Assembly: GCA_031763025.1 (NCBI GenBank)
Contig: JASSKH010000041.1
Location: 2,356,001 to 2,420,000, forward strand
Direction: 5' to 3'
DNA: 64,000 nucleotides
Origin: Macrocystis pyrifera
Lineage: Eukaryota; Sar; Phaeophyceae; Laminariales; Laminariaceae
Within the stretch, counting starts at the first letter, position 1; each line of letters starts with the position of its first letter. Below, piece after piece: positions 15,550 through 59,591 of the stretch. Under the pieces are notes generated by a model. The model was not told where the DNA came from and searched no databases. It saw nothing but the letters and a program-made list of their open reading frames with translations. The position numbers and the translations under genes are program-made.

Positions 15550-15602
<53 letters not shown>

Positions 15603-30470: not shown

Positions 30471-33400
30471 TTAGAGGGTAGGATCAACGTCCAACACCCA
30501 GGGGCCGCTATCCCAACGCTCCCAGTAGCCCAGCGGGTAGGTCGGTGACGACTCCTCCCCAGGAAAAAGGGCCTCGAGCCGACCGTGGTTCGCCCCCCAC
30601 CGCCCCCCTGCGGTTCGAGTCGACGGCGCCAGTCGCGAACGTCCCCGCGCGTGTTGCTGAAGACGGACGTCTTGCGACCACCTACTACCTCCAACGTTTG
30701 TGTACGGTCGAGACGAGGAGGCGGCGTTCGCGGGGGGTGCCGTAGCAGAATTAGCAGCTGCAGAAGTAGCAGATGCAGAAGCCCCTGCCGCAGAAGCCGC
30801 TCCTGCATAATAGGCAGGCGGGATGCGCGTCGGGGAGCTGTTCTCCGACCGTCGTCGATATTTGTAACCGTCATCAAGCACTGCTTGCGCCGCTTTGGCT
30901 TGCCACGGCAGGTACGTGCTCCCGCGTTCCCGATACCGACTGAAGATGCTCGGAGTGTTGGCGAAAGGCGGATTCTCCGCCACGCTGAGGGACATATGCC
31001 GGTGGCGATATCGCTTGCTCACCGGAGCAGCCGCTCTGCCCTCGATCATCCTTGGTGGCGCTACGGCGGCCATCGAATACGTGCGTGGTGGAAATTCGAC
31101 GTCCACTGGCCTATAACGTGCCTGCAACGGAAAATTGGCGGCCACTCCTGCAGCATTCGGTGACGCTGCCCCACCAGGGTCCACCAGCGGTCTCAGATAG
31201 TGGGATGGCGTCACATCGGTAGTGCTGCTGCCAACCCTCGGCCTACCCGCTGTCATGGCCCATGAAGCGGATTGCTCCGACCGAGAGCTGTCGGCAGTGA
31301 CCTCTCCCGCGAATAGGGGGGTGGTTCCATTGCTATAATACCCGTTACCACCGTGGACCGACGGTTTGAACTTCCGAAGATTCAATGTCGGCACGGCAGG
31401 GTTCCGAAATCGGGAGGGAGAACCGACCAACAGACCCGCCGGGTCGTGAAAGTAGACTTTTTTTTCGTGCGTTGCTTCTCTCGCCGCCGTTGCTGGAGGC
31501 CGTTGCGCGTTTACTTTCTTCGCGATAGTCATCCTGGACGACCCGGCGCCACCACCACCTTTGCCGTATCCTTCCTCCTCCTGATCGTCGTCGTCGCCTT
31601 GATGTGCTCCGCTATTCTCGGGTACCGCTGACTCGTGCGCCCGTCTTCGGGCAGACACGCCATTGAGGGCATCAAAACCTTGGCTGCTGCCGTGGCCCTC
31701 CAGAGAGGAGGATCCACCGGTGGTGGAACTACTCCAGTCGCCACCTCCTCGACTCTGACTTCTCCTGCGGCAGAGAAATTCCCGACGCTTCCGATCCTGT
31801 GAGAGAAGTAGTTTTGGAGGGTGTATAACTGGGTGTCTGATATTACGCGTAAAAAAAAAAGTATGTCATTGTTGCTGATAAGTCAGGTGTGAGTTCGACC
31901 GATCCAGTGGTTGATACTCAACATATTATCTACCTGTAGGTGTTAAGCTCCTTGGCTCAGGTTCACCGCGTTCATAAGTACTCGTATATATCAGATATTT
32001 GCGGGTACAGTGCTTGGTTGGATGTCGACCTGTGGGTGTCGTGGAATGTTTTTCGAATCGGGTCGCGATGACGTGTAACGACGAACTTCTATCAGGAATG
32101 TCAACGGCAACGTGTGCACCAAGCAACCGCGCTCTCGGGGAGTAGAAGACGGCGCGATGGCGAGTTGGTCGTGGGATAGTGTGCGTGATTTGTTTGGTTT
32201 GCGCCACCGATAGAAGCAAGCAGCCCTTGCATGAGGAGAGTTTTACCCCAACCCTCTCTTTTTCGCATGCATCCCAAGGATAATAGCCCCAACCCCTCTA
32301 TTTCGTATAGCGAAGAATATTTACCTCCGTTATTTTATCTTCGTCTGGCTTCACTTCGCAGTAGTTCATAATCGGATCCCAGCCGGGCTCTCCTGGTGCC
32401 GGTGTCCGCCATGGTGGAAGCCCCAAATCCGGAAAAAAATGCCATACCTACCGCAAAGGACGGGGTTGGAGGCGGAGCGGTAACAGCTAGTTCTCAATAT
32501 TTGCGTGCTTCGTCTGGTAAGCCGCTGAGTTGTTGTTGTTGAACACGCATCTATTTCGATTCATCATTTTCCCGTAGTCGATCTCTCAAGGAGAGTAAGA
32601 AACGCTGTCACGGCTCATCGGGTGTCGTTGATCGTTAGCTTCGGGTTGAAACCACCCCATCAGCCGGGCACGCAACTATAATACATGCCCTGAACTCACA
32701 CGGCCGTGCGCGCGCGCATCTTGTTGCTACTATACATCCGTCGTATACATGATCATACGACAATGATCGCTATGTCCGAAGAACTATCGGCCAAATTGCA
32801 TTACCAACCGATAAAACTTTTTTGGACTACTGCCGTGAACGGTGTCTGGTGCTCTACAAACATCCCATGCATTGGTTGTGAGCGTCTGACACCAACTGTG
32901 GTGCTACTACTTATTGACCCTTTTAGGATCGCAGCCCCGGTCTGGTGAAAAAAAACACTCAAAGTCTAAGTGGTTTGTCCCCAAAACGGGACTGCAGTCC
33001 GAAAAGGGTGAACCTATTGGACTTCTGAGGGCCCCTCACCTGAGGACCCCTCTCTCTATGTATATATGTATATATATGTATATATAAAAGCGTATATAAT
33101 TTTTCCCCCTGCCAAAATCCGATTGGAACAAAACGAGGCGGATGCTTAAGCTTCGGCCTATCATGGGGTTTCAAATGATATCGTAAAAGCAAAAATGGGA
33201 GTTGCGCTGTCGGACTGTGAGTAGTTCCTCAGTGCCCGTGAGGAACCCCGCCTGTCAGAACCGTTTTGGCCAAAAACGGTAGAGTACCCCTATGGTAGCA
33301 CGCGTGACGCCAGAAAAAGGTACAGTACGACGTACGTCAACTTGTTGCGAGGAGAGCTCGGTTGTTCCGTACCAGTGCTGCTGTACTGCTTGGCGCAGAG

Positions 33401-36400
33401 GCACCTGTCGACATGGGCAGCCCCATTTCTTCCCCTCCAACACACACCTGCTTGCGGTCCACGTAATACGGTAAAGACTGCTCCAACGCAGGCGCCTCCG
33501 ATGCCGATGCCGGCTGCCAGGCCTGGCCCCATTGTGGCGCGTCCATCGGTCCCAGCATGGGACGCCTGTCTTCCGGCCTTTTAAAGTCCATTCGGCCGGA
33601 TGGAAAGCTCGTTTTTCTGCCCCGGTCCGACTGCGCGGGCGGGCCGCCGGCTTCATCCCCGTCGTGCAACGACGCTCTTCGACCCCTCTCGTTGTCTGAT
33701 CCGCCCGGATCTCGGAGGCGCCGAATTTTTCGCTGATCTTCGTCTTCGTCGTGTTGTTGGAGATTGGCAGATACCGGCGTGGTTTGTGGGCGGACAGGGT
33801 GTTTCTGGGGAGGGCGGCGGCTTAACTCGTCCTCGGGGTGTCCGGATTCCGGGTGACTGTCGTCGCCGTTTCGACGTTGGCCGTAGGCCCAGTGGCTGCC
33901 AATTCCGTTGCCGGCTGCCTTCGCTGTTCCCGTTATCCAGGGAGTGTCGTGATTCGCCCTCCCCGTTTGCCGGTCGTTTCGAAAAGTGCGGCGGGCATCG
34001 ACAGGTCGCGGTGTCGTGTCGACACCTTCGTCGACCGCACTTAACCCCTTCCTTCCTCCTCTCCCCCTTGTCGCCGCCGCTTCCCCCACTTTTTCAGCCC
34101 TGTCTGCAAGATCATCCCTGCGCCCCCCTCTCGAATCCGGCGGGGCGGGTGCTCGTCGGAACTTTAGGCTCTCGTTGCCTGACACTACTGTATCCCTAGA
34201 ATCTCGAGGGTTGTCGTTGCTCCACGGGGCGGTGCGCTTTTTTGTGCCGAGCAGCCTCCCATTCACCCCGGAACTGTTTCCCGCGGTACTCAAATGGTGC
34301 CTGTCGTGGTAGTGCTCTGATGACGAGCTGTCGTCGTGATGCGCGGCGGCTTGCCATTCGGTCCCCGCTCCTCCTCGAGGCGGCGACCGTTCCCCTCTGG
34401 CACTCATTGGAGGTCGAAGATGGTCTGGCACCGCTTCGCGATGTGGGCTCTCTCTGGCGAAAAGGTGTTTACGGCTGGTTGTGTAGTCGTCGTGAACAGA
34501 CGACCCACGCGGGCGTCCTTTGCCGCTGACGTGGTCTTGCCGCCCCGCATCAGCGCGCAAAGGAGCACCCTTACCCTTCGTGATACAATCGTCTAAAAAG
34601 GAAGCGGAGACCCCCGACGGCTCAACAGAGTTCGAGGCCAACGATCCCGCACGAAGCTCCGGTTCGCGTTGCTCGCGCTCTGGCCGTCGCGCATTCGAAG
34701 ACGCATCACCCGTTCTTGTGTAGGGTTCGCGAGAAATTCGACGGTGTCGAGTTGGCCGTACCGTCGTCGGTGACGTTTTTTTCTTGTATGGAATTCTTGG
34801 CGTTCCTTCCTATGGAGGGCGAAAAACATGCGCATCCAGTAGCCCCGCCGGACAGCCGAGGGGAGTAGCGGGCGAGCGGCAAGGGGTTCGATCTGGTACA
34901 TGTACAAGGTTTTCCCCTTCGGAGGCATTCGGACGTGGGGAGTGACGCAAATATAAAATTCGATGACGCTTTGAGCAGCTGGACCAAACGACCAAGCCGT
35001 TGAATTTTTTATTCCATGCAACTAAAAAAAAACGAAAAAGAAAAACGACCAGCGAAACAAAATCGGTACAGATATCTACCATACACAACAATGTCGATTC
35101 TACCGCGGTTTTCTATCATCTACCACAGCTCGCTCTCTTCGTAATCATATGTATCAGCGTCAGCTACGGCGCGCTGGGGGGTGTGCGACTGTGTCGGCCA
35201 GAGCTTAAGATCAACCGTGTTTGGTTGGCTTGGCAATGTCGGTCACGCGCTGCTCCCTGGTTTGCACTGGCAGCACCACACGATAGAGCGAAGGCTATGA
35301 TGTGTACACGCTTACCTCCTTTGCCCCCGTAGAGATTGATGCGGCAATGTCTTGCCCTCGTTCGTCAGCGGTAGTAGCCCCCCCGCCTTTCGGCATCCTT
35401 CCTGATGTTCTGGTTGCCGGCTCCTTAATAGCCATACTCGTCGGTTGGGTTTGGGGAAGGGACTGGCCGATAGAAAATTTCGCCGCCGCCCCCTTGCTTT
35501 GCCCTGCAATGCTCCTGCTAACATCTTCCTCGACCTCTCTCGTTCCTTCTGCTGGGTCGAACGTTCGCACGACCCTTGATCTTGCCTCCCCATTTCCTTC
35601 TACGGTGTCTATGTTGTAGACGTGGACGGTACCATCACCATCGGGAGCAATCCTTGCGATACCACTGTTTGCTACTCTCGGGTGTACCGCGTGAGGAACC
35701 TCGACAACCGGTCGGACCGGCTTACGAGGTCTCTCTCCAACAGCGCCTCCAGTTGCGCCAGAAGTTTTTCGTGGTCGCCTGTTTGCTCCGGTCTCGCCGA
35801 CATACGAGCCCGTGAGTCCGCCCAGTCGCTCGTGACCCCCCTTTGTCTGACCGGCCTTGAATACCTCTTTATGCACCCCTCTATTTGAGGGATCTACTGG
35901 CTTGCCCGTTCCTGACGCGACCCCTCGGTGCGGTTGGTCATGGTCGTCGTACTTCTTGACACCTCCAGACGGCCCGCGCCGGGAAAATCCCTGGTCCCTT
36001 TCATGTCCTTCGCCCGTTTCCGGAACTGACTTTTTATTTTCGGTCACACTGCTTTGGCGTCGCAAAACCTGCGTTCTACCGTATGTTTCGGACTGCCTAG
36101 GCCGTTGCCTACGATTGTCGTCAAGGCACGAAAGAACGCCATCGCCACCGCTCTGACCCGTTCGAGACTTAACGCTCACCCCGACTGCCTCGAACTGATG
36201 CTGCTCTTCTGCAAAGTTGCCGCCGGAGCGCCTGCTGGCAGTGTGGGCGGCATGTTGTCGGCCAGACCTCGGACTCTCGGCCTCCGCGTCCGGTGGAGCG
36301 AACCCGTTCGGGTTTAATGCGTCTCCCGCGCCGTACTCCGCGGTGTGCGCGTTCCCGCGTGAGTCTTTCCGTCTCGTCAACCCTTGCACGGTTTGCACGG

Positions 36401-39400
36401 TCGAACGATCGGCCGCAGTAGTAACGCTCTCGCCTACGCCTCCTTCACGTTCCGATCCTACATCTCCACCGAAGCTGGTGCGACCGAACGTGAGCTCCGG
36501 TATCGAAGCGACGTCACCGGCAGAGTCGGGTCGGGCTGCCCCCCGGTTGGTTTCGTCGTCGAGGACGGTGCGAGTGTCTGGGTCAAGGTGCTCTTCATCA
36601 GCGGCATTATTGTGGGCTGAGAGTCCTCCCAACGCCGGGTGGCCGCCAGATGAACCCTCCAATTTTTCGACGTCCGATAACAAGACGTCCCCGTTTTCGT
36701 GCTCCCGTGTGGACCATGCGCCGAGACCCTTGCGACTTTCAGGGCGCGCAATGGTGGTGTCGTACGCGCCAGGGTGTGCGGGTGTCCGAGTCTCTGCTCC
36801 CTCCGTGTCTAGCGAGTCGTCGATTGCAGCCCCGTTTTGGTTGTTTATGTCAGCGTGGGAAGAAGGTGCTGCTGCGTTGATGCGCGGCGGGTCGTCCCCT
36901 AACGTAGATTCCCCGGTCGCGTTTGAAGCGCGTGGAAGCGCGTGGTTGTGGTTCACAGCTTTGTCGCCGGGATAATCTGGGGTTGCGACGGATGCGGTAC
37001 CCTGTGGTTTGAGAGCCGTAGAGTCTTCATCGGAAGTACATTTTACGGGCATATTCTGCTTGTCCGTCACCGGTTGAAGACGAGCTGCGCGCACACGATT
37101 GCGAGGAAAATGTGACGAAAGAGCAAATAACCGCCAATTACACTGTTGGTTTGGAGTGAAAAGTAACAATGGTATGTGTTGCAGTTATTACGGGGGTCCA
37201 TAGTTAATGGGATCAAAATTTGTTAGTAAAAAAAGGTAAATGTATAGGTTTTTATGTACACCATAGGTCCTATTAACCATGGATCCCCGTAATAGCATAT
37301 AGATGCAATCGTGTGGGTTGTCAGACCCTAAGAAATCCCAGTTGCAGCAGCGAACAGGGTGAGACGCACAACATCATCAACCGAACCCTGACAAGATTTT
37401 CGAATCTCGTGTATTTCTGAGGTACTCCCGTAGGCTTGATGTCATAGGCCGAGTCCGTTTTTGTCTTTTGCACTACCCCAACACGACGCCGTAAAAAGGC
37501 CCAACGCGCCTATCGTCTACCACAGCTTTAGTTGTTTTTATTCTTGAGGTAGTCTTCCACTCCAGAGCTATTGGAGCCCATCGTGTGACCACGGACAGGG
37601 CTTTGACAATGAGTACATGTGAGAACAACTACACCAGCACGAAACTTCAACAGGATCTTGAACGGGGTTATGTGTGGTGATACTTCGAGGCGCGTGAGGG
37701 ATGTTGTGCCCTAACGGAGTGAGCGTTCGTCAAAACCAATGCAAACGTCACGGGGCGGAAGCGCTACTAACTGACCAAGTACGCCTTCTGACGGCGTTGA
37801 CGACGCGACCAGGCCTCTATCCTCAGTTCTGGCTGCACCTTGTCGTGCTGTGAACGATTCCGACACCTTTGCGGCAAGCAGGGGAGGCCAAACGTTAGGC
37901 AAAGGAACGGAACCAACTTCTATCATAGTATTCGAAATATTCAGAGGATTTAGAGCCTATTAATGGTATAACAATCGTGTTTCCTATCACAGGACTCCGC
38001 GAGGTGTTCGTAGATTGTAAGAGCAGTCGAAGAATCGAAGCGAGCCGGTGCATCAATCGCAAAATTCAGAAGACAACAAACGCGTGGAAAGCCGTACATG
38101 GGGACCCCGACAAACACACATATATATATATGTATTAGGGGGGGTGAAGGCATTAACGAATCGGTGTTTTTCAGCAGATGTTACCCGGAACGTCGGTCAC
38201 CTTCCTTGCGCTAGCCTCTGCGATCCCGCCCCCCACATGACTTCGTAGCGCCACACCCGACACGTCTTCGTCATGTGTGCTTGACCTTAAGGCCCGGCCG
38301 TCTCTATCGCTATATATCGTCTCGTTTTCAGGTACTCCGTGGTCGTTGCTGCGCTTCGTTTCCATCAGCTCCCGGTCATAGTATTGCTCTGAATCTGGCT
38401 GCCGCATTCCTTCCGCTTCATTCAGCGCCATTTTGTTCTCAAGCTTCATATTTGGTACGCGCACGGCAGGCGACGGATCCCCGGGCGTCCCATCTTCCCA
38501 CATAGGCGACTCTTCTCGCCCCACGCGACCGTAATTACCACTCGGGTCGTCTGCATTGCCTCCACCTGGCCCGCCGTTGGGATCCAGTCCTAGCCGGTCG
38601 CCGCCGGCCTCAATAGAGTCTGACCGCGTTTTCCTGGGGAAATGAATGCAAGCGATGGGCCGTGGAATCGAGGTGGGTTTGTCTCCCCCAGTGTCGGCGT
38701 CGGCTAGCCAGGGTGATTATCCGTCGTAGCAAAAAAGTACCGACGTCGTACACACCGTTTTATGACTCGTGAGATTAGTGTTACGGAGGCCTCCTGCCAC
38801 GACTGGCAGGAGCTTCCCGCCCAGCAGGGGCTACTACCCTCGCATTGGCAGTGACCGATCAGCGCGCAAGGACCGCTTTGGTGATCTCCACCGCGGGTTC
38901 TAGGCCCTACGGCATCTCTCGGATGCTCGCACCCGCTTCGGCAGACGCTCTGGCATTCGCGCCATGACTATCTCTGTGCTTCCATGCCCTGCTTTAACTT
39001 GTGATGCAGCTGGGTAAGCTGTACCCTTCGAGTCTTTGTTGGGAACCAATTTTGATTTTGGTTTCTCGTTTGGTTCCATCGTTTTCTGTCCCCTCAGTAT
39101 TCCTGAATTCTATAAAATACACACTGCTGTCTATGCTGCGTTCCGTACATATGTGCTTTATTCTTGCTACTGTTACTGAAGAAGAAGAGACCCCTTGCGC
39201 ACAGGAAAATAGAACAGGTATGTATGTACAGCATGCACCACGAGTCGTGGTTGGGATACTAGTGCATTCTCCCTCGCCATTCTCCGATTAGACCGCCCAC
39301 AACCGATCGTATCGTTGCAGATGCGATGAAAACCCGGCAAAACGAGAAAATCACACTCACCGTTTTAGGCTTGGTCGTTCAGAGGCGCCAGACTCTTGAC

Positions 39401-42400
39401 GATCGCCAAGGTCACCCCTGACATGGTCGTCAGCGCTGGGAAGGCCTTCCTGCGTCCCCATAGAGTGCCCAGGTGCTACCACTTCGTTCACCTCTTCCGT
39501 TCTTGCTGAGCCCGGCGGGTCGGTCTTCGTAGACGACGGAAATTCCCCCCCGGTAGGCGGGTTTTGAGCTTCTAGCCTGCTGTCGGGCGAAGTACATGAC
39601 GCGGTGTATCGATCAGCTTTATTACGTATTTTTCTTGGTGCTCGGTTCAATGTAGCCTTTCTCGGGAACCAAAACCAAAACAACGCCTGCAGTCGGATGA
39701 AAACCTTAATCTTATACAACCAATCAGTCAGTATGCAGAATAGACTACTTATGCAATATATAGCTATTCGGAACGCAGATGCAGAGGGTTTTTTGTTAAC
39801 GTGCAGCAATCTCGTACAACTGTAGGATTTTATTGGCGAATACATTGTTCGGCGTGCAGATCGATGCCGGAGGGGGGGTCTGACATACTACTCAGCACCT
39901 GTAACTGCAGAATTGTCGTCGCATACCTCATATCCTATATCTAACCCCTCCTTGCTGCAGCCTCGGGCACAACGCCCTAGGAAACCCTATTTTCAGTCTG
40001 GAGTGGGGACAACCGTAGCCATGTATCCGAAAACGGACGTTTCCGGAAGCCGAAAGCAAGAAAATAAAAATTGCTCTTTTTCTTCGCTCAAAATAATATA
40101 CGGGCAGTGACCCCTGTCCATCCATCAACAGCAAGATCCACATGATGTGTGCATAAGACAGACAGCTGACCCAGGCGCTGCACACGGGGTAGAATCACCA
40201 GACGGCAAAGGTTCCGGAGCAAATCGAGGTGCCTCAACTGGATGTAATCCCTTCGCTGTGGGCATTGGAACGTTACTACCAGCTGAGGTAAAACGATAAA
40301 AATATGCAGCTAACCTTGGTGAGTTTGTCTCGGTAGACGAAGTTCGTCCCGCCATCGACCTCGACGCTCGCTGTCGTTTTTCGATCTCGGCCCGCCCAAT
40401 CATAGATTCCCATTGCTGACCCCCCGGCACAGAGAGGTGGAGGGAGAGAAACATAGCAAGTTGCGTAAGTAAGTGCACGTGAGTCGGTCGTGTACAATGC
40501 GACTGTCAAGAATGCAGGTGATCTCTCCCAAGCACTATCGCAAGCACCGATTATCCTTTTACCTATTGCTCCGTTGGATACTCTTGGGGCGCAATGAAAG
40601 CGACCTTGGCACCCGAGCATATTTCGGAATGTGCAATACCACTTCACCCACCCAACGCCTCACCTCATCTGTCGTGCCGGAAATTCCATCCCACCCACCG
40701 GGACTCCCCCCGAGGTGAGAATGGAACATCCCGTTGTGTGCTGTTGCCAAAGCTGCAATTTGTTGATCCTGATCGCCAGTTCCGACCGTTGCCGCTGCCG
40801 GGCCGTGACCATCCTTCTCTCGCAAGGCGCACCGATAGACAAATGTTGGAAAGGGCGGGTCAACCCTGTGCGTTGAGTAAGGCAGCCCTGGGCTGGCACC
40901 GAAAATTGCCTCATGGCAGCGTGGAAATTTCTATAAGTCACTGTTACGGAGGGGGGGGGGGAGACAGCAACCAGAGCCCACGATGGACCCCAAAAACTGT
41001 ACTCCCCTATGTTGACACACCATGTTTGGTTCTGACTGCTATGCTCCCTCGTAGAGCTACGGTAGGGCCGTGAGCTGGCTGGCTATATACAAGTTGGCGA
41101 CTAGTTGTTAGTTGGTTACATACCACTCTGGGTGCAAAATATGTGGACCGTTGGGTCTTCACATTCATGTGTAAACGATGCTTGTATTTGCGCCAAGAGT
41201 CGTAGGTGTTACAGTCGGTCGCGTGCGGCAACTTGCGGAGCTCTGCGTCTTCGTGTGTGATAGGCGCTATTGTTTTTGTATTTGACGCGTGTTTCTTATC
41301 GATAACTAATACGTCGGTTAGTTGGGTTTCTTCGCGACCCAACTAATAAATAATTACTATATATCATGGCCGTCAAGTCTAACCAAGGCATGCCTTACTC
41401 ACAGCCCTAGCCATTACTGCTCGTGGGCCACAACTCTGATGCAAGAAGGACTGGCGATTTCCGTTTTCGCTGCGTAACAATATGCTACGAGAGACTTTAT
41501 GCACAATACACGGGTCCCACCCAGCAACATGAGGCACTACATTAACACGATGTTCGCGCGAAACCACCGGGATATGGTCGGCGTCTGCTCAGTCACAGCG
41601 AGCATACCCCACGGCAAGGACCAATATTTTCTCTCGTGGTCTGGCCCACTTAAGGGGGGGAGGTGCTTTCAGTAGAGTGTTCAAGGTGCAATGTTTGTGT
41701 GACACATGGTTCACAAAGTTGTCTATTGTATCTAACGAAAAAGACAAAACGAGAACACCGGAGCGGGGATGGAGCACGGAGGCTCAACCAGCACGAAAGA
41801 GGAAACACCACGCACGACTGAAGAATATTAAATCTGTCTCACGCCGCACTACTGCAACTTCCCCCATACTGACCTGTGGAGGCAAGGAAGAAGAAGGCCT
41901 TGCAGGCGGTGACGAAGAATCAAGTCCTCCCACATCAAACGATACCTTCCTGCGCCCCCCTGGATCTCCATTATCCACTGATGTCCCCACCGGAACCCCA
42001 TCAGCTCCTCCGTTTTTTGTTCCCTCTCCATCCTCGCTTTGCACCGGTCTCGACTCCCCGTCGCTGATACTAACGACCGCGCTGGGCCCACCGTACTTCG
42101 TGTCCCCAGGATAAATTTCCAAACTCGTATCTGAAGTCTGGCCGGAATCGAATTTTGGCCTTCTAGTCTGCGAGGGTGCCCCCGCTCCGATACTCGCGTC
42201 AAGAACGCCGGTGGCATCGTCGGTGGCGCGGTTGGTTTTTGACCCTTGTTCGACGACGCCGGCGGGTGCGATGGGTGCGTGCTCGCTATCCCTACGATCA
42301 TTGTGTTCTCCGCCACCATCACATTCGCGTTCGGGAGAGACTAGCGCAGTATTCCGCTGATTTCTGCCTACATCTCCCTGGTGAGCCCCTCCCCCGGCTG

Positions 42401-45400
42401 TGTCGTCGTAGCCACCCGCTGTTTGCCTTCCCCCGTGATCGATAGGCGCCGTTCCGTTGTTGGCGCCGTCACGTTCCCACGGCACCGCATCCGTGTTGTC
42501 ATGTTCGCCATAGCGCATTTCCCCGGCGCCAGCTTGCTGCGCGCTCTCGGTTAGGTTGTTGTTAGCAACATATGCAGGTGAGCCCTGAACACCGTGGGTG
42601 TCGCCTCGCGTGACTCCGCCCACATCATCACCGTATTCGGCGACTGCCACCCCTTCGCTCGGAACAGCAGTTGCTGTGGAACGCATACCTGTGTCGCTAG
42701 TGTAAGCTACGCCCAGGGTGCTGCGGGAGCTAAGTTTGTGGTCGCCGGCTGCAGCTCGTTCACTGGCATCGTTTCTGGGTCCAGCGTGATGAGCGCTTTG
42801 CGTTTCGCCGTGCGTTAAAATAGTGTCACCGGCATCAAAATTGCCTTTGACTCCGCCTTTGGCTCCCAAGCCTGCGTTTCCAGAGGATCCAGAATACTCC
42901 CCGCCATCACTTCCATTTTGATGCTGGAACTCCACCGTGATGCTGCGGCGCGTCCCTCCGTCCCCGGTCTCACGCTGCGCCACACGGCTGCTGTCCTCGT
43001 TTTTATCGGCCCGAGGAATGCCTGCAGTATCACGGTTACCTGTATCACCGTCACTATCTCTTCTTCTGCGTCCGTCGTCACCGTCTGCCCCCCCGCGCTT
43101 TCTACTAGAGTCGCCCATGCCGACGTCACGTGTACCGCGGCGGTGGGCTTGATCGTCCTCTTGCTGGTGTTCAACTAAGGTTGCCGCCGCGGCAGTATCT
43201 GATACGGGACTAGCGCCAGCAGCTTCTCGATGGCCGTGCTCGTCCGCGGCAGAATCGGAGCGTTGCTGGCATCGCAGGAAAGAGCCACGCCGAGCATGGG
43301 GGGAGGGACAGATCACCGGTGTTGAGAGGGATGGCTGGTCATCACAGGGTGGGCAGGTTGAATGTACGATCGTATTGAGTACGACTGTAAGGACAGGAAG
43401 GTGTCTGCGTGATGGGAAATCGCCATTATACTACTGTAGTATTACTTGGAGCTGATAGCGCGAGATTGCCTGTGCGTCACGTTGTGATTTGCTCAGGCTT
43501 TACTTTGCAGTATTTTCTGTTCCAGAATGGAAGTCCCAGGCACATGCAAGTCATGGGGAGCTCGTCTCGACGTGTAACCATGCATTTTTCAGACGCTACG
43601 TCCACGAAAAACACGGCTTGCTAAAGGGGCAGCTTACTGCACGTTGTTGGCGGATCAAACGCAACGCTGCGGAGACAAAACCACTCAAGACCCACTCATT
43701 GTACATGCTCAACGTGGGGGTCAACCAACAACGAATGGGGCGCTCCCGAGGTGAAGCGTGGCCCAATGCAGCATCAGTACCTGCTGTGGTTTGTCTTGAG
43801 GATGCTCGATGTCCGTTCTGTCGTGCGCTCTTGCGTCAGTGGGACCTGCAGCATTTCTCGCCCCCCCACCCCCAGATAACGGCGTATCAGCGAGCGTTTC
43901 GCCGCCCTGGCGAACGCCATGCGTGTTGTCACCCAGACCGCTACTGAGCGTCTCTCCCTTTGGCAGATAATCCCCACCAGAAACTAGCACCCGCGCACTG
44001 TTTTCCCTCCTAGGGACCTCCACGCTCTCCCCCGGTTCTCCTGTGCCTAACTTCGCCTCAGACCCTTCACGTTCACTGCTACTCTGTGTCAACGGCCGAA
44101 TTTGGCTGGGGTGAAGAAAAACACCGTTCGTTCGGCGAGCTTCGCCATGCTGGTTGTCGGCACCTCGTGCGCCCTCCTCTCCTGGTTGGATGAGCTGAAC
44201 ATTCAGCTCAGCTGTGTTACGATCCACGCTTGACGCATGCTCCTCTCTCGCGGCTCCGTCCTCTCGACCAACATCGCTACCTCCAGGTATACGACCACCC
44301 GCCCCTGAGGTGACACCCGTCGGCGGTACAGCAGAGCCAAGGGAGTCCGCGCCTAGAGCTTCCGCATGCCCCACCCCGCTATCTGCAGCCACGCCCCCAA
44401 GAAGGTTTGCTTTAGATTCACGAATGGTGCCGCTAAGAGCCGCGCCCGCAAGAGCATCTGCGCTAGGTTCATGAATGGTACCGCTATCTATCGTTGTCGT
44501 TCTGAAGTCCTGTGGCCGATCGGGTCTTGGCTCTTCAACGGGCGTGGTCTCTTCGTATATTTCTCGTACTCCGCTGCTGCTACTTTCGGCATTCGTTGTT
44601 CCCGGGACCGGCCATGTTCGGAGTTCTTTAAGAGCTTGCAGGCGTTTCCGGAGAGTCCTCAGCCGCTGGATGTACTTGTCCTTGAGCTGGGGGGGGAGAG
44701 AGTGTCCCGCTTGCCGGTTTTGTCGGCGAGCAATGCCGTGATGCCGTCCACGTCGAGCGGAAGAGAATCTCGTTCCCTGGTATGAATGTCAAGCGCGTTC
44801 CACATAGAAGGACACCACTTCAGTCGGTGGTGTTGATCTGGGCCACAAAGAAAGCAAAGGTGCCACTTCGTGCAAAATATTGACGCCAGTATTGTACGGA
44901 ACGAATAACACTACAGTAAGTTCATTGATTTTACTGCGCCCTGGCTAGACCAACATGCTGCACGTGGCATAGGCTGGCAGCAGCATGGAGATTCGTGCCA
45001 ATCGTTTTTATACCAAATACTCGGTATGTCTTTATTCAGTGGCTAAGGAAAGCGAAAATTGCTCGCGGGGCAAGAGGGAGTGGGATGTTCTTACCGTCCG
45101 AGTTCGTCAGCTAGCGCATCGCGCATGCGATTGGTGGCCTCGGAAAGATCCTCATCGACGATGCACTCGATGTCTCGGTCAGGCTTGAAGCTCGGCGGCA
45201 CTACGTTCGTGTTGGTGATGGTCTCGAGAAGCAGCCACAGAAAAGCCGTGTACTTCAATAAGTTTCCCCCCATGACGCCAAAAAAAAAAAGCACGCGCAA
45301 ACAGCGAGGCGTTAACTTCATCAGCTGGGCGTCCGCGATTGGAACAGCATTCCCCCCGTCATACCATAACCATTATAATCGGTCCAATACCCACCCCGTT

Positions 45401-48400
45401 GCCTTTCTGTTGTCTTCACGCCGTCGTCGCCAAACCTTTCAGACTTGCACCCAGATTTTCGGGGACAAACTTTTTGGAACAAGCGCGGGATAACTGTACA
45501 GTCAAGGAGGGTCACCCCCCACCCCCCCACCCCCGCCCATCGTAGCATCCTCCAGACCACCCTCCTCCTGAGGCGTGCTACGACAGAGGTAGCACTTCTT
45601 GACCAAAGAAAACTGACCGGCCGCCCTCCTTAACCCAATATCGTCGGAACACCATCAGTGTTTACCATATTGTTCGTGGTGTATCTATATAGGCTTTGAG
45701 GTACGTACAGTAGTTCATCGAGTTTTGGCCTCCTTTTTTAATTGCTTTTCACGTACCTGGTAGTCAGTGTTTGGGCAGCTTACTAAAAAATGAGGTGCTG
45801 GCTGTACCGTAGCACGCGCCTCCTCATCGAACGAAAGAACACGAAAGAGTTTGAGACAGAGAGTCTATCGCCCCCGTCCCCCTTTGTCCCACCCCCCCCC
45901 CCGTCCTCATTCGCACCTCTTCCTCGTTGATGTTCTCAGTCCAAATATCGGCCAGCTCGAACATGCTAGAGGCGAAAGCCTCCTTCGTCATCTTGTTGTC
46001 CCACCTCGCCGTGTCCCTCGACCAGTCCACCTCCGCAGACGTTTCGGCATCCTCGTCGGAAGTATCGGGGATCTGCACCGTGGTATATTGTCAGGGCATG
46101 GACTCCATACAGCAGAAGTCCATACACTACAGTAGTACGAGAACCTGCTTAACAACTCTGTATTCTGAGCCAGCCTCAGATTCTCACGTGAGACAGGGTG
46201 TGTCCCTGCAATAAGTAACTTCAGAAATGAACAAATATATATCATACATATATATTAAAATCTTCAAGACAGCCGCCGAACTAAAATAAAGACTAAATGC
46301 AGGTTTATTCCCTCCAATCAACAGCAATATATATGAACACCACAGCTCACCGGTGAGCACGCGCAGGGTAAATAATAATCTCGCGGTTTCGTGCAAAAAT
46401 CGAGCCATTCCGGATTTTAATTCACAATCATACCGTCCTGTCGCGTATGGTATCATACGCGCAGGTGGCCGGAACCCCCCCCCTTGCTCGATGAGGGCAT
46501 AACAAAAAAAACGTGGAGACATTGAACAATGTAGCATACCATCAGTCGTGCCGAACTGAGAGTTTTTCGGCACCTTTTGGGGTTTGCTACATTATACAAC
46601 GTCTCCACAAATATTTTTTGACGCCCACATTGTGCAACGGGGGGAAGGGGTCCCGGCCACCTGCGCTCACCCTAAGGCAATCGGTGGGGCTGTTCTGTAG
46701 CTACATACTCGCTCCCCCTCTACAGACAGTATTCGATGGATAGGGCGGGCTGTCAACGTCGTATATTCCACCACCGACGACGGGGATGAGATCAGATGTT
46801 TTCTCCCCAAACAAACGTGTTTTCATGTAGAATTATATTTCAAGTACGTCAGGTGTGGGTTCGATCGATCGATCGATCGATCGATCGATTGATTGGTTGA
46901 GCGGTCGATACCCAGCTTTGCAAGCTGCGTGATACGTCGGTCTCTCGTGCTTTGCTCGTATATTCCACGTGGTGGGTGTATTTATTGGACGGGGGGAAAC
47001 GAAACAGGCAACCCGCAACGTACGTACCAACGCCAGGTGAAGCTTTCGGTTGAGCTTGACGTAAGACTCCTTCGTCATCTCGCCGGAGCCCTGGGGGTTG
47101 AGCCCGGGAAAGCACCAATACTCGTTTGTAATTTCCTGTACAGTATCGTCGGCACGCGAATAAGACAAGGGCAAGGAGAAGGAGGAAGAGTCCAGAATTT
47201 TTATACAACAAATGCGCAACAAACGCGGCACCGCCTAAGTTTCACTCATTGCAAGTTGACGTGACTCGTTTCCACAAAACTTCCCTTTTGACCATTTTTC
47301 CAGGCGTTCGGCCCTTGGGTTGGAGACTGTGTCCGTGCTGTTGTCCAGGCTCGCCTGGTCGTCGTGTAATAGTCTCATATACCAGGTGCCGGTACTTGTT
47401 AACAACGCTATTCTCCGCCGCTGCCGCTGATCCCTTTCCGGAAGCGGGGGCTAAAATAAATTCGCAGACGCTGTGATTGACTTTGCTGCAACCCAGGAAC
47501 AAGACTACCGTACGAGTATATATATACGAGTCTGCCCCACCCCATCACGACCGCCCGTTAATATTTTGATATTTTCCACAGGAAGACGCTATTTCTAACT
47601 TTGTCGCAAATTCGGGAACAAGATTTTTATCGTGTTCAGGTGGAGTCAGAGTGGTGCTTGCCGTACAGCACCTGAATGAGGGGCTTGTTTCTCAAGGCCA
47701 GCCTCTTCCTGACGCTGATTGGCGTGTTGACCGCGGGGTTTCCCTGTCGCTTGTAAGGTACCGGGTCGTCCCCTTGTCGAACAACTGTGACCACCTCGTC
47801 TTTCTGCAGGTTCCACATAACTTCCCGTTGCGCGCGGGCCAGCTCCCTGCGCTCTTCCTGGGTCATGCGAGTAATCGCGGCGCCCTGGCCCAGCTCAGGA
47901 GTGCTGGCCCTAACGCCCATTGTAGTCGTTGGTTCGCGTGCAAGGAGAGTTGCATATACGAGTTAGCCGGATGCGATCGATTTGTCACGATGGTCGAGAC
48001 GACAGGTGCGATTTAACAGTACAAGTCCTGACTCGTTGAGATCGAGAGTTCGCGCCACGGGCTTTGGCGGCGTGAGACGGAGCCTTTTGCGCATAGTGTA
48101 CCCCCTCCCCTCTCCCGGCACACTCCGACAAGGGGGCGATACGTCCCAGAACGGCTCATTAGCAAGATTACACTGAACCACGTTAATACACCACGGACAC
48201 GACGGGCACCACCAACCCAAACCCCAATAGCACCAACAACATCCACATTCTTCTATTTTTCACGGATTGTACCACAGGTGCGCGTGCAGATCGCAACATA
48301 CGTCAGCTCTGAGTTTTGACAGTATTGGTCGATACTCAAGCTTCCCAGCTGATTGGGTCATACGCCGGCCGCTCGTGTTCTACGTTCATTCCTCGCTATA

Positions 48401-49810
48401 TATGGCACTATGGATGGATGGAAATTTCAGGGCCGTTCGTGTGTAAATGTCAATACCCAACGGTCCTTACATGTACGTCCAGAGTGGTAATATACGGCCA
48501 ATAAGTCGTGGCGACTTTGTGTCGTCGATGGCAAGAGCTTAGACTTCCACCGGAACGGCGGGCTTGTTGCGTGTACCTAGTACCATATATTACTCACCGT
48601 TGGCTATCGCGTCGTAGGTTCTTTGCCATAACGGTAGCGTATTTGACGTGGCGAGGCCCAGGCACCTCAGCGACTTCTGCCGCATTCTGCGCCAATTCCG
48701 TTGCCATCTCCCGTTCAAGCTACCCGGACGATGACGAATACGAACGCAAGCACGCACCACCGACGAAACATCGCGCACAACAGTTTAGCTTGTGTTTCGG
48801 GGTACTCGTGCTGTAGCAAAGCTCCACGCCGGAAGGAGTGTGAAAGTAAGTGATCTTTGCGAGCAAGCTCTTCCCTGCCTGTATCTTACGTATTGACCTA
48901 CTGTAGTATTATATCGTCGTGGCCTAAACCGCGATTACAAGAACATTTTATGGTTGCTCACGGCAAGGGATGTGTGACGCCTGGTATATCATTCGAAGCG
49001 CCCGGACAGCGAGCACACGGCATGATCTGGATTAGCGCTGGGGAGGTACAAAAGTACTTTGCCCAATTGTCTCTCGTTCCGTGAGCTGTTCCGAACGTAT
49101 ATACAGAGTGTATCTCGTCTGGTCTGTACCTTGTACCAAGTACCAGTACCTGGTACCTCAACCCACTACGAGTACATATGCCGTACGAGTGGTACGTAGG
49201 ACAGTCTTCGCCCAAGAACATGCCGTACTGTAGGAAGGTTCTTCTGCGTTTGTTTTAACCTTAACCGGCCCACACATATTACGAACGTGCTCGTAGAACT
49301 ACGAATCGTGACGGTATCGTGACTTCGTGAAACCTACTACTACTGTCGTATAGTGCTGTAGTTCCACCACGACGAGGACGGGCGTGGCCAAAACCCTACC
49401 ACACCACCACGCGACCATGCTGGGAGGAGTCTGACAGTGTATATCTGGTATACAGACGAATGTCTCACCTGCACCACGTGGCTGATGTTGCCATCGGAGG
49501 CGACGTGCCGGAGCCAAGTCTCGCTTGATGAGGTCGCGTCCTTCCTTCCGGTGGTGGTTGCCTGGGGTCCATCAGGACCAGTTCCGTCGCCATCCTTACG
49601 CCGACGTTGACTTTCGGCGGAAGGGGTCCTTCTAGTGGGTTGCCCACCTAAATCAAGAGCTCGTTGGCTGCCAGTGGTACGCTTCGGCGCGTCCGTGGCA
49701 AAGGAACGAGCCGCGGATGGCGACCTCTTCATCAAGGGGAGCTCGGAGCGCTGATCTCCACGTCCCTCGAGCACACCGACACCGACATCACCACCAGGCG
49801 GTGCCGTCAT
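30471..49810 (-). CDS. giant mostly disordered protein, 15 exons, about 2952 residues, unknown function
   Basis: Exons (high-low): 49810-49469, 48719-48598, 47909-47672, 47135-47028, 46072-45917, 45252-45095, 44776-43781, 43265-41874, 40415-40315, 39576-39361, 38633-38185, 37084-35316, 34809-33448, 32447-32325, 31796-30471. All have GT..AG borders and matching phases. Residues 115-375 look folded: LEREMATELAQNAAEV, then EYWCFPGLNPQGSGEMTK, VDWSRDTARWDNKMTKEAF, and SMFELADIWTENINEEE spliced to YTAFLWLLLETITNTN. This reads as a helical repeat module. Residues from about 430 to the end are Gly/Asp/Ser/Arg-rich, low in hydrophobics, and surely disordered. Short basic helices appear (LKDKYIQRLRTLRKRLQALK; QWESMIGRAEIEKRQRASRS). 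The 41-residue exon 14 (DLGLPPWRTPAPGEPGWDP) and the C-terminal region, with Tyr-rich motifs, may bind partners. Exon 7 needs one extra C in an eight-C run near 44690. I do not recognise the family. A large cytoskeletal or ciliary scaffold is a guess. Confidence 0.72.
37188..37292. mobile_element. family A element, copy 10
   Basis: Ends TTACGGGGGTCCATAGTTAA and TTAACCATGGATCCCCGTAA, TA on both sides. It lies in the giant-gene intron between exons 12 and 11, about 100 bases upstream of exon 12. Confidence 0.92.
41124..41202. mobile_element. family B element, copy 5 (diverged)
   Basis: Arms CACTCTGGGTGCAAAATATG and CTTGTATTTGCGCCAAGAGT pair with several mismatches; the internal GGACCGTTGGG is typical. 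It lies in a giant-gene intron. Confidence 0.55.
45573..45665. repeat. dispersed repeat shared with 27258-27350
   Basis: Second copy of the CTACGAYAGAGGTAGCAC ... CTTAACCCA repeat, inside the giant-gene intron between exons 6 and 5. Confidence 0.6.
46459..46666. mobile_element. long foldback element in a giant-gene intron
   Basis: Nested inverted repeats: GCGCAGGTGGCCGGAACCCC / GGGTCCCGGCCACCTGCGC outside, ACGTGGAGACATTGAACAAT / ATTATACAACGTCTCCAC in the middle, and GTGCCGAACT / AGTTTTTCGGCAC at the tip. Almost the whole 208 bases can form one imperfect hairpin. It lies between exons 5 and 4. Confidence 0.88.
46858..46892. repeat. GATC microsatellite
   Basis: About seven GATC units (TTCGATCGATCGATCG...) followed by GATT variants, in a giant-gene intron. 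Confidence 0.95.
48406..48487. mobile_element. family B element, copy 6
   Basis: Arms TGGATGGAAATTTCAGGGCC and GGTCCTTACATGTACGTCCA, ending CAGAGTGG. It lies about 110 bases downstream (minus strand) of giant-gene exon 2. Confidence 0.75.
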
Positions 49811-50209: not shown

Positions 50210-53200
50210 ATGCTTCACAGTCAAAAGTCGAAGTCAAAAGCACCTACAATAAGAGCGTTGACCAGGCGCAGGCAGAGCAAAACTGCCTGTTGTGCTCTGA
50301 GCGCCATGCCTCTGCTTCGTTGCTGGTCGCGGCAACAGCACCTGGAGCACCGACCGAAACCGAGCCTCACGAAGCCATGCACCATTTTTGTTGTTTGTTA
50401 CTGGCTGTCGGTGGCGCAGGGCTTCACTGCAATAAGCTCTGCTGCTGCCGTTGCGGCACGCAGCAGCAGCAGTAGCCTCTCTTGGGTCCTGTGGGGCAGT
50501 CCTTCTCCTGCGGCGTCACCCCTCAATGGGCAGCGACGAACAAATGCATCCTTGGCAGCGGCATCGTTGGCCATGTTGGAAGCTGGGGCCGAACCCCGGC
50601 GAACGTTGGTAGTGATCGGGGGGGGAGCTGCGGGTTACTTCGGCGCTATTCAAGCGGCCTCGTCCTCGTCGTCCAGCGTGCTGCGCGTTGTGGTGCTGGA
50701 GGCAGGCAAGCTGCCGCTTCAGAAGGTCAAGATCTCCGGCGGGGGGCGTTGCAACGTGATGCACGACAACAGCAAGGTATAATACGTAGGTGCGGCGACC
50801 GGGCGCGCGCGAGTTCGAGCTCGACCTCGAGATTTTTGTGATAATCAGAGACATGGAACCCAGTATTTGTCCTGGCAACATGCCAAAAGTAGTGGCCTGT
50901 GAGAGCCTTGCCTGCCTGTTCTATTATTAGGCTATCACGATAACGCGCAACAGGGCACAGCAAGGTGTGAAACATGACAAGTTATTATAGCATGACAGCA
51001 AGCCTTCACGCGCCAGCTTCGGGCCTATTTTGTCTTACGCTTGACGTCCTTTGGAATTCAAAACTATCTATGTTGTAGTATGCCCCGCGGAATATCGGCT
51101 CTCCGGTGGATGGGTGGGTAGGTGGCCGTGTTATGAATGTGACTGCTTACTCGCCCCACTGGAGTGACAGCGGTCGTATCACTACTGCTGTAGGTTATAC
51201 CTGGTACCCGTGACCATATATATACGTAATAGACCCATGTCCGCGAGTACACTATCAGTGCTCCGTAGTGCTGCTGTAGACTGCGGACACTGTGATGTAC
51301 CGGTATTGTCCTATACACCGATCAGCAGGGCCGGGCCCTGGTCCGGTATGTACCGGCTGAGGGGGCTGCCAGGGTGCCAGTACTTTAACTATTTACGCAC
51401 GTCCTACAATAACGCCTCATTAAACTGCAGAAACCCATTAAAATTCACGGCGTAAAGAGCACAGAGGGCACGCAGAACAGCTAGAGAGGGGAGAGAGGGA
51501 GACAGGGAGGGAGACCGTGAGCACGATGGACAAAGCCGCCTCAACCACTGATGGCTTGGGCTGTGTGGACCCTGACGGTGCACCTGGAGTCGAGCCCCGC
51601 TATCGCTGCTGCTGCTGGTGTTGGTGCTGCTGCTGGTGTGAAGGCTGTATCGGCTCCCAATCGAGAAGGGAGAAGGGACCGGCTGAAGCAGTCACAGCGG
51701 GAGGCGAAGCACACAAGGCTTAAGACATCGCGAAGGAGAATCTGAGTAAACATCATGTTTGGAACAAAATAAATGGATATGTACGTGAATATTTACGTCT
51801 CTGAGGCCGCGATTTCGCAAATTGTAGCGATTCGGTATTGCACACTTCAAACATGTTTTTGAACCCGTGTCCCACCTTTTCGGTATCTAGGCTGCGTGCT
51901 GCAGTATGCCATATTTCCGCAAACTCCTGTTCAGTATACGCTTCGCTCGCTTTTGCTCTTTTTTTATTTCTTGGTCAATCTACCACCATAGTGCGTTTGA
52001 AATGGTCCAAAAACGACGTATTTTTTAGCTCTAGTGAAGCCAAAACCCGTAAAAACGGGCCCCCCTCACCAGCCGGGGGGGGGCAGGGGTCTCGACCTCG
52101 CCGCGAACACCTGTGCACTGGTCGGGTCCAATGTGCTCGCATGTGACGCAGCCAGTACATACTGTACTGGCCCTACCAATCAGAGTACCGGCAGTGTCGT
52201 ACGTATATACACTGTAGGACCAGGTATCCCACATCTACAGCAGTAGTATGACGATACTGCTGGTGTGTTGTCCTCACCGTGTGTGTCACTGCGACGAGTC
52301 CCCGTCAATTTGATCGTCCTGTCGCAGGCAGTGTCGCTCATCGCAAAGGGGTACCCGAGGGGGGGCAAGCAGCTCATTGGGCCGTTCAAGTCCCTCTTCG
52401 GCCCAGCGGAGGCGGCGGGGTGGTTCGGGGCCAGGGGCGTCTCGCTGAAGACGGAGGGGGACGGCCGCATGTTTCCCGTGACGGACGACAGCCAAACCAT
52501 CATTGATTGCCTAGAAGGTCCGAACAACCATCATTGACTGCCTACAGTCGGTGTTTCCTGCTTCCTTCCTGTCGCAGTGTATCGTGCCTTCGTACGAAGC
52601 ACCAGGTACCAGGCATTTACTACTTTAGTAGCTCGCTTGTCACCACCGCCATGATAATGTACACAACTATGGACGGGAATGCAAGGACCGTTGGTGCATG
52701 CCTGGTACATATCAACACCTAACTGTCCTTACGTTTCCGTTCAGAGTGGTGCTGCGCAAGGCATACCAGGTAATGCATGGCGAGGAAGATAGGTATTGCC
52801 GCAATCAAACTCGAAAGCATATCCATTGAGGAAGCTTGGCGGTGCGTGATGCGTTAGGTGCGTTGGTTAACGGACCTGTCGACACGTGCTGCGGCGTACT
52901 TTCACTTCCACGTATGCATGCATTATGTAACTCCTGGTACCGCATGTGCATTTACCCCAAACTCAGACGAGGCGTTTTTTTTGGGTTTGGTTTTTTATAA
53001 TACATGCCGCACGCTTTGAAAAAAAACTCTACTATCGGCAGGAGCCGCGAGAAAAGCCGACGTTCAAGTGGTCACTTCGGCGAGGGTAATGTCGATTATG
53101 CACAGGGCCCACCACAATGGCGACGATACTGATGGCTACAGCAGCAGCAACAACGACAAAGCAGTGCAACTACAACCGCAGGAGCAGCAGGAGCAGCAGG

Positions 53201-56200
53201 AGCAGCAAGAGCAGCGCTTCGATGTGTCCTTCACCACCGCAACGCCTCTCTCACAAGCTGTCCGTTCAGCTCTCGGAGCGACGGTGGAAACGGCGGAGAC
53301 AGCGGGAGTTAGCGGGGTCGTGGCGAGCGGTCCCAGCCACTCCAAAGCTGTAGACGGGGCGGCGACTGGGGTGGCGGGGGTGACGGATCGGAGAGCGAAG
53401 ATGGGCGATGCAGGGCCGCGTAACTCCGAGAGGACTTCGTACAGGATTTCGTGCGAGTTTGTCTTGCAGGCAACGGGGGCGGCGAGGGAGGGGCACGCCT
53501 GGGCCAAGAGACTCGGGCACGCGGTGTCGACGCCAGTTCCGAGCCTATTCACGCTCACGGTGAGGGATCCGAGGTGAGTTTTCGTTTTTTGTGCTATACT
53601 TCCAGACGTTATTTGCACTGTACACTATCTGGTATGGTGTTGTCCGTCTTGCGGGGTGTAACGACGGTGATGCGCGCTCAGCTGCGAAGAGAAGGAGTTT
53701 AGTATTGCTGTTGCTGCTACCACTATTTTACGCTCAGAAGGGGCAGCCATGCGGGTGTTGGTTCGTTTTACGTTTTGTTCGTTAGAAGAAACTACTCGTT
53801 GGGCTACTTAGTCCTGATTATATTGATGCGAAGTACTGGTATATTCGTAGACAACGAGTATTATAGTGTAAGACTACGAAGTTCCACCCTGGACGGAAAT
53901 ATAAGGAACATTGGGTATTCATATGAATGCCCACAAGGTCCTTACATTTTAGTCCAGAGTGATACCTGGTATGTGAGTAGTTCAAGTATATTTGCCAAGT
54001 ATCGAGTAGTTGCTTCTGTCTGACGGACACGTTTCGTCGCTCTGGTCGACCTTTGATGGACCCTTGACCGTTGGGCAGGAAGATGGGGAAAGGTAAACAT
54101 TTGCTCATGTGGACTTATTTAACTATTTGTGTTTCGATGGCAAACTTTCTGCGTTTGAGCACCCCGTCGGTTTGGCCGTATGCGCAACTTCGATCGTCAA
54201 GTCTAGGCCATAACGGATAATATCCAATCATTATCGTAGCTCAGTGTGGCTTTACGCACAGTTAACTCCCTGCTGACCTCGCTAGCGTTGAGATGCCCGG
54301 TTACAGGTGCATACGATGAGGCATTACGTAAGGGATAGGACCGAACCACTGCTGTTATGCGGGTTATATCTGGGTGTATTAAACCACTCGCATTCAGCAG
54401 GTATTATCATTATTGTTTATATGATACGTAGCTCTTTTGACTTCTTAAACGAATGGCGAGTGGTTCCTCTTTCAGAGGGACAGTAAAGCCTCCATAACAA
54501 GTAGAGGGGGGGTGCGGGGATACCATATCACAGTTCCTCTCAGTATGATTACGATGTCGCATCCTCGTCCTCCTCCCGGTATCTACGGCTAGTCCATCCC
54601 CTCCTTCATCCCTCTCCGTCGGCGGTCGCTTGTTTCTGGTTACGTGACGTTTGCTTTCGCGTGCTCTCGCCCTACGTCGGCAGGTTGGAAGGCTTGGCCG
54701 GACTGTCCGTGCAGGATGCCGAGCTGAAGCTCTTCGCGGAGAACCCGAAACCGAAGGGTGATGAGGGGTCTTCGGCGCGAAACGGCAGAATTCATGCCGA
54801 CGGGACTGTCGGCTGCGGCACCACCACCAATCAAGTGCAAGGGGGCAAGAAAGAACTGGGGGCAGACACAGAAGGCAGTGCACGTAAGAAGAAAACGAGA
54901 AACAAGAACAAGGCGGGGAAGAAAAAATTGGCCATCGTACAGCGGGGGCCACTCTTGATTACCCATTCCGGTGAGGGCCTTTTTTCAATTTTAACGTATT
55001 TTGTTTTTTCTGGGCCTTCTGCCACAGAAAGCGCGAGAGTAGCGTGTAAGTTAATAAACGAAAAACCTCCATGAAAACTGACTAGCAGCGGAGATACTGG
55101 ACCCTTCGCGTGATAAAGCAGTGGGGATACTGAACCCTATGAATGAGAAAAGCCGAAGGTGTTACTCGGGAGGGGAGAGAGGAAAATACCTGTGACCACG
55201 GCTTGTCCAGAACTTCGCCGAAGGTACAATCTCATGCGCTTTGAGATGGAATGTAAAACAGATGATCATTGAATCATGAAAATATATAGCTTCAAGCCAG
55301 CCTTCTGGGCCGTGCAGCTCTTTGACTGCCTAAAGCAGTATCTCCTACTTTTTGGCGTGTTGCCCTCCCTTGCTTCGTCAGTCCCATGTTCGTCTAGTCT
55401 ATTTTTTTTTTGTTTGTGTCTTCCCGATCGGGAACCGTGCTCTTTTGCCCTAACGCTTTACACCGAATCGGACACACCGTAAACGCAAAACAATTTTTGG
55501 TGCACAGGATTGTCTGGACCTGCCGCTCTTAAGCTGTCCGCGTTTGGAGCGAGGCTGCTGAACGAGGGCGGCTACAGGGGCAAGCTGGTGGTAAACTGGC
55601 TGGCGGGGAATAATCCGAGCAGGGTGAGTGCAAGACGCCGGGGTTGGGTCCGCATAGAGCAGTATGTACGGCGTTTTTCCACTGGAGTACGAAAAAAGCG
55701 TTGGGCTTACGGTGGAGTTTGTTTTTTGTGTATGTGCGTGAGATATATGCGCGACGTGACATTCGCTCGCTGTCGTGACTGCCATCACGAAAAACAGTTC
55801 TTCCGCCAACCAGTTTTCTCTTGGTACGATTGTTATCGGTGCTGTTGTGGTTGCGCTGTTGTGTTCACCTGAACCCGTGATTCCTGCTCAACAGCGTCCA
55901 ACACTCTTATCTAATAGGGTCCGTGCTGACTACTCTTCCTATGTATTGCTGGTATATAAACTGCAGTGTACTATGAGTAAGTATTTGGTGGCATGTCCTT
56001 CGTGCGATGAGCGCAGCACATCGAGAAAAAACCCGCGCGCCGTTCTCCTACGCTAAACCCAGACTGGACACGTGCGCGCTGACGGGCGAGGTGCGGCCAC
56101 GGCTTGCAGGCTCTCCGGCACGTGTGCGTCACCTCCGACAAACTCGTTGAACAGTGGAATCGGTAACAACAACACAGCCGTTCGTAGGGGCTATGCTTTG

Positions 56201-59200: not shown

Positions 59201-59591
59201 CGTGGAGCTGTCCGACCTCGACATGCGCACCATGGAGAGCCGGCGCGTCCCCGGACTGTTCTTCGCGGGCGAAGTGGTCGACATCGACGGCGTCACCGGC
59301 GGCTTCAACTTCCAGAGCGCGTGGACCACCGGCTGGGTGGCCGGCACCGCCGTCGGCGCCAGGGCAGCGGAGGCGAGGGAAGGGGTAGGGGCGGCAGGGG
59401 CAGGGGTAGCGGGGGCGGGGGTCGGGGCGGCGGCGATGGCAGCAGCAGGAGAAGGAGTAGCGGCCGCCGAGTTCGAGCACCGCGGCTCACCAAATAGTAG
59501 CGTTCGCGAAGATGAAGATCGGGAGGGTGCCGTGGGCGACGCGGGGCCTGGCCGACGGAAAAAAGCGGTCGCCAGCGGACGGTGGGAGTGA
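50210..59591 (+). CDS. HI0933/YhiN-type FAD-dependent oxidoreductase, 7 exons, 804 residues
   Basis: Exons: 50210-50776, 52328-52517, 53042-53573, 54684-54970, 55508-55623, 57647-57931, 59154-59591 (TGA). Phases 0,1,2,1,0,0 all match, and the sum is exactly 805 codons. Motifs: [20 protein letters not shown] (FAD Rossmann, residues 131-150), [18 protein letters not shown] (family signature), [63 protein letters not shown], and [19 protein letters not shown] (C-terminal FAD contact). Bacterial members are about 400 residues. The excess comes from a Gln/Glu repeat insert in exon 3, a Lys-rich insert in exon 4 and an Ala/Gly-rich tail. The N-terminus has a hydrophobic stretch ([16 protein letters not shown]) that could be a signal peptide followed by a plastid-type Phe. 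An alternative start is Met-33 at 50306. ATGA replaces the usual ATGG. The substrate is unknown. Confidence 0.88.
52664..52749. mobile_element. family B element, copy 7
   Basis: Arms CTATGGACGGGAATGCAAGG and GTCCTTACGTTTCCGTTCAG. The loop contains GCCTGGTACATATC. It lies in the flavoprotein intron after exon 2. Confidence 0.78.
53886..53961. mobile_element. family B element, copy 8
   Basis: Arms CACCCTGGACGGAAATATAA and GGTCCTTACATTTTAGTCCA, internal ATTGGGTATTCATATGAATGC palindrome. It is followed at once by GATACCTGGTATG (the 9-mer). It lies in the intron after exon 3. Confidence 0.8.
56596..57590. mobile_element. hAT-like element carrying a GACCC minisatellite
   Basis: Perfect 12-base ends CAGGGCTTTTCG / CGAAAAGCCCTG. 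Flanking octamers CTTTTTTT and ATTTTTTT look like an 8-base target duplication with one mismatch, as in hAT transposons. Inside are many imperfect units of CTTGACCCGACCCGACCCGY and GAGATTTTGAA-type spacers of 35-45 bases, plus CGCGGGTC clusters. It ends 56 bases before flavoprotein exon 6, supplying most of that intron. Confidence 0.82.

Follow-up and report, generated by a model that had tools for sequence, protein, structure and literature searches.

The window, a stretch of 64,000 nucleotides from a contig of the brown alga Macrocystis pyrifera (JASSKH010000041.1), carries on its minus strand a series of open segments with GT..AG borders that can be chained between a start codon (ATG) at 49810 and a stop codon (TAA) at 30471. 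The first-pass annotation had reported GT..AG-bounded open segments on one strand, and the chain bears this out; the model used here has 16 exons, the addition to the earlier 15 being a doubtful 72-nt segment. On balance, these exons appear to constitute one brown-algal nuclear gene, or two adjacent ones, for a mostly disordered protein with a small helical N-terminal domain.

The model was compared with the output of a simple gene finder of semi-Markov type, whose training set was 4388 conserved codons together with 2990 codons from the polar tails of seven of the same loci. The conserved codons come from 43 of the 57 hits of kinase, ABC and EF-hand searches elsewhere in the genome; ten of the 14 hits that were dropped had internal stop codons, and for the other four (L001, L002, L042 and L047) no reason is recorded. 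The finder recovers both ends of four exons (1, 8, 14 and 16), one end of eight (3, 4, 5, 6, 7, 10, 11 and 13) and misses four (2, 9, 12 and 15), and it adds an exon, 45567-45502, that is missing from the 16-exon model. Exon 1 (49469-49810) has a donor at about the 100th percentile and is followed by the tentative exon 2 (48598-48719), which is open, runs from phase 0 to phase 2 and has a donor in the 99th and an acceptor in the 82nd percentile; it scores -2.6 bits when forced into the gene finder's parse. The helical N-terminal domain begins in exon 3 (47672-47909), and the first EF-hand-like loop lies in exon 4 (47028-47135); both show codon use like that of conserved genes, and for both the finder recovers the donor and places the acceptor elsewhere, at 47884 and 47090 respectively. 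Exon 5 (45917-46072) holds the second putative helix-loop-helix, for which a single-sequence model gives two helices, and has its acceptor recovered and its donor placed at 45893 instead. The helical domain ends in exon 6 (45095-45252), with a donor in the 99th percentile and an acceptor only in the 22nd; in the finder's alternative a second gene starts at an ATG at 45273, and exon 6 falls within its opening exon.

The remaining exons would encode the polar part of the protein. Exon 7 (43781-44776), whose donor is recovered, contains a frame break and is started by the gene finder at a phase-2 acceptor at 44501 instead. It is followed by the disordered exon 8 (41874-43265), the tentative exon 9 (40315-40415; donor 98th, acceptor 84th percentile), exon 10 (39361-39579; donor recovered) and exon 11 (38185-38633; acceptor recovered, finder's donor at 38201). 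The doubtful exon 12 (37776-37847) has phase 1 at both ends and leaves the frame unaffected, with an acceptor in the 71st and a donor in the 92nd percentile. Exon 13 (35316-37084) is the longest disordered exon and has a recovered donor, the finder's acceptor being at 37001; the disordered exon 14 (33448-34809), the tentative aromatic-rich exon 15 (32325-32447; acceptor 98th, donor 99th percentile) and the last exon, 16 (30471-31796), complete the chain. Scored against a generic consensus and ranked among all 1140 GTs and 1207 AGs in the region, the 15 donors average the 96th percentile of the former and the 15 acceptors the 85th of the latter. Intron lengths range from 318 to 1458 bases, an ordinary size for a brown alga that fits the averages of 530-1203 bases given in two published reports (PMC6507550, PMC6418280).

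Intron 4 harbors an element of 208 bp (46459-46666) whose inverted ends are 25 nt long and which reads as a MITE-like repeat; it occurs at 74-100% identity in at least 40 places including its own, these being the best 40 scored of 829 candidates.

Several observations indicate that the open segments are real and that the locus very probably codes for protein. All of the five longest open frames (629, 548, 490, 464 and 355 codons), the first of them in exon 13, are on the minus strand. In 200 sequences simulated with the dinucleotide frequencies of the region the longest frame had a mean length of 210 codons and a maximum of 359; four of the five frames are longer than that maximum, and the fifth is about equal to it. 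The six long exons that were examined have 37-49% G and 6-17% T at the first codon position. With the gene finder the minus strand reaches 441 bits, whereas the plus strand of this region gets -5.7 and each of the ten simulated sequences on which it was run gets -7.2, the value for no gene.

Codon use differs between the two parts of the locus. Ranked by synonymous codon use, the sense frame comes first among the six frames in all four of exons 3-6; in the six long disordered exons it comes first in none, with all six scores negative, and the synonymous-codon test failed as a proof that the tail codes. The GC content of third positions (GC3) is likewise higher in exons 3-6 (164/219) than in seven tail exons (1408/2472, 0.57; Fisher p 1.4e-7). 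A version of the gene finder trained only on conserved domains calls the region of exons 3-6 alone (33.6 bits), so that the tail is called only by virtue of the composition learned from other tails. This behavior and the tail's want of synonymous codon bias speak for a reading in which the tail is not translated as drawn and represents several genes or in part non-coding DNA. Such a reading is nonetheless highly improbable: open frames of 355-629 codons with an excess of G at the first position of the same frame are hard to obtain without coding, and in none of 18 settings does the finder begin another gene past exon 6, that is after 45273.

A comparison with other loci of the genome places the low GC3 of the tail in context. 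Across 25 loci examined, nine flanks had at least 100 codons and a hydrophobic fraction of at most 0.23, and in all nine the GC3 of the tail (0.595-0.788) was below that of its own domain; the value for the present tail lies under all of them. Kinase and ABC genes of this genome (for example L067, L018, L068 and L071) have polar tails of 158-965 codons that share an open frame with the domain, and these tails resemble the present locus in this drop of GC3 relative to the domain. They differ in that the tail here makes up more than four-fifths of the protein, is spread over many exons and has a GC3 that is lower still; at this locus, moreover, no catalytic domain was found.

The division of the exons into one or two genes turns on the junction of exons 5 and 6. 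We infer that one transcript joins all exons, which would yield a protein of about 2,860-2,980 residues, the range spanning the alternatives for exons 7 and 12. Alternatively, with a probability somewhat short of even, there may be two neighbors on the same strand, namely a short gene comprising exons 1-5 and ending near 45502 and a long one running from the ATG at 45273 to 30471, with about 2,420-2,570 residues. The two-gene parse outscores the best one-gene parse by 3.5 bits in the standard setting (441.4 versus 437.9) and is ahead in all 18 settings; exon 6 has a weak acceptor with an ATG just upstream; and forcing the exact exons 2-6 loses a further 10.8 bits relative to the best one-gene parse (437.9 to 427.1), which itself departs from the 16-exon model near exons 2-6 through an extra exon, 45567-45523, between exons 5 and 6. 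Against this, the margin is only 1.9-4.9 bits across the settings, the terminal exon of the short gene (45567-45502) scores only 2.5 bits, and the end of exon 5 matches the start of exon 6 in phase 0, both reading as one helical domain. These bit margins are small compared with the uncertainty of a generic splice-site model and give no strong lean between one gene and two. Of the protein of about 2950 residues proposed earlier, the portion from exon 6 to the stop is well supported, with about 2,420 residues in the finder's parse and about 2,570 when the small exons are added, whereas the full length hinges on the join of exons 5 and 6, on the break between exons 6 and 7 and on the unrecovered exons 2, 9, 12 and 15.

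The break between exons 6 and 7 is without a clean solution. Exon 6 ends in phase 2, the frame of exon 7 that reads LKDK... needs phase 0, and the frame is broken at a run of eight C residues (44696-44689) inside exon 7. The claim that all 14 phases match therefore fails unless a base is added, which in the earlier chain was one C at this run; the series of phases given with it (0,2,0,0,0,2,0,0,2,2,1,0,0,0) is reproduced with exon 7 in the LKDK... frame and exon 12 omitted, but only with that added base. Phase matching is in any case weak evidence because the sites were chosen to fit. The acceptor at 44501 takes exon 6 in phase 2 with the sequence unchanged. A 65-nt mini-intron (44751-44687) also fits the frame and was set aside, its donor lying only in the 50th percentile, and micro-exons between exons 6 and 7 reached a best combined score of 0.1. 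The C run may be an assembly error, a variant or the end of an intron. It is improbable that it represents a true frameshift in the haplotype of the assembly, with this copy of the gene broken there: in its favor, the frames upstream (ERDSLPLDVDGITALLADKTGKRDTLS) and downstream (LKDKYIQRL) of the run both look coding-like by eye and are one base apart; against it, a homopolymer sequencing error is equally likely, and with the acceptor at 44501 the join to exon 6 is in phase and needs no frameshift at all.

That the locus holds a long gene whose protein is mostly disordered is well supported; about 2,500 of the residues would be polar. In the 2955-residue variant with the mini-intron, the hydrophobic fraction is 0.13-0.21 over residues 375-2900, in agreement with the earlier description of a polar, mostly disordered remainder, and 0.27 in residues 2901-2955. 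The composition of the tail is that of disordered proteins, with low hydropathy and few order-promoting residues; in the same variant it has 0.3% cysteine and 380 lysines and arginines versus 422 aspartates and glutamates. All 15 segments examined, the N-terminal domain among them (-0.020), have a negative charge-hydropathy index, while 19% of positions are positive in 51-residue windows of this variant. No window of it is hydrophobic enough for a membrane helix, the top 19-residue Kyte-Doolittle mean being 0.85. Short aromatic islands are present in the last two exons (15 and 16), and these may be candidate binding motifs. The earlier statement that only residues of about 115-375 look folded is roughly upheld by hydrophobic content, which at 0.29 in that region exceeds that of residues 375-2900; even there, however, the charge-hydropathy index falls slightly below zero, and exons 15 and 16 have their aromatic islands.

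Residues 115-374 show a degenerate EF-hand-like pattern, the overall form of which is presumably familiar from protist proteins, and exons 3-6 read as a helical domain with spacing of this type. In EF-hands, acidic calcium ligands occupy loop positions 1, 3, 5 and 12. The likeness to the EF-hand pair (PF13499 and its relatives) lies in the helix-loop-helix spacing of exons 4-6 and in an hhalign match that puts YWCFPGLNPQGSGEMTKESYVK on an EF loop of the genome's own EF-hands; that match, however, has a probability of only 2.8%, and the loop in exon 4, read by eye as NPQGSGEMTKES, departs from the EF-hand in being without the usual acidic ligands, with N, Q, S and S at positions 1, 3, 5 and 12. 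The EF-hand models of Pfam gave no match to the domain at E<=1, nor at a threshold of E 10, at which the HMMER filters drop most matches above about 0.1; the only Pfam matches at the latter threshold were DUF6354 (E 0.13) and HEAT_Maestro (E 0.17), both rejected as under their curated cut-offs. A phmmer search of PDB sequences with the domain likewise recovered no EF-hand, its sole match being a Z-domain (E 0.35). A single-sequence model of exon 5 alone predicts helices at positions 17-27 and 30-51 with moderate confidence (mean pLDDT 71.7), and Foldseek found no match to it in the PDB at E<=10; the model of exon 3 alone has helices and two strands at low confidence (mean pLDDT 63.6). From this slender evidence of spacing and sequence pattern we infer that the domain is perhaps a degenerate EF-hand pair.

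Searches for relatives agreed with the earlier remark that the protein could not be tied to a known family. Pfam, searched with the N-terminal part and six exons, gave nothing above the cut-offs, and the same held for NCBIfam with the domain as the only query and for PDB sequences, where the domain and exons 13 and 16 were the only queries. Two further matches were rejected as under their curated cut-offs: DAB2P_C for exon 13 (E 0.42) and, in NCBIfam, TIGR04268 for the domain (E 0.13). Scans of viral and genome contigs with the N-terminal domain recovered no relative. In the alga's own genome (537 Mb, 223 contigs) no second copy was found among the best candidates scored, the matches besides the locus itself having E-values of 0.19 or worse; the queries were exons 2-6, exons 7-8 from 44686 onwards, exon 13 and exons 14-16. 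No paper on the protein was among those listed in literature searches, and none was found for the motif FELADIW and three variants of it.

Going by composition only, the most likely role of the protein would be that of a flexible scaffold. It might act as a soluble scaffold or tether, in which partners would be bound at one end by the N-terminal domain and at the other by the aromatic motifs of the C-terminus, with the flexible disordered chain connecting the two. The locus is plausibly a scaffold-type lineage gene and looks like an uncharacterized gene of an ordinary kind for such a genome. There is an outside chance that it represents an unrecognized giant algal scaffold family, with a diverged EF-hand-like head, about 2,500 disordered residues and conserved C-terminal aromatic docking motifs. 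Very long disordered proteins are easily split or overlooked by automatic annotation, above all in intron-rich genomes, and a verified model of this locus would be a test case for how, within a single gene, codon use and composition differ between folded and disordered regions.

The surroundings of the locus include, on the plus strand, a divergent neighbor with an HI0933-like flavoprotein domain (50573-59591, limits from the gene finder). Pfam model PF03486 recovers this domain in two pieces (E 7.1e-14 and 5.5e-24), and the finder's first and last exons sit in both of the frames that match HI0933_like. On the minus strand, at 9136-18012, some open frames look like portions of a protein arginine methyltransferase, with matches to PRMT_C (E 1.5e-7) and, through a methyltransferase motif, to PrmA (E 2.6e-6). 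By its EsV-1-7 motifs (PF19114), the family of which is expanded in brown algae, the genome as a whole has a brown-algal look: all 150 places scored among 1585 candidates lie over the cut-off, as against none of 14 control genomes.
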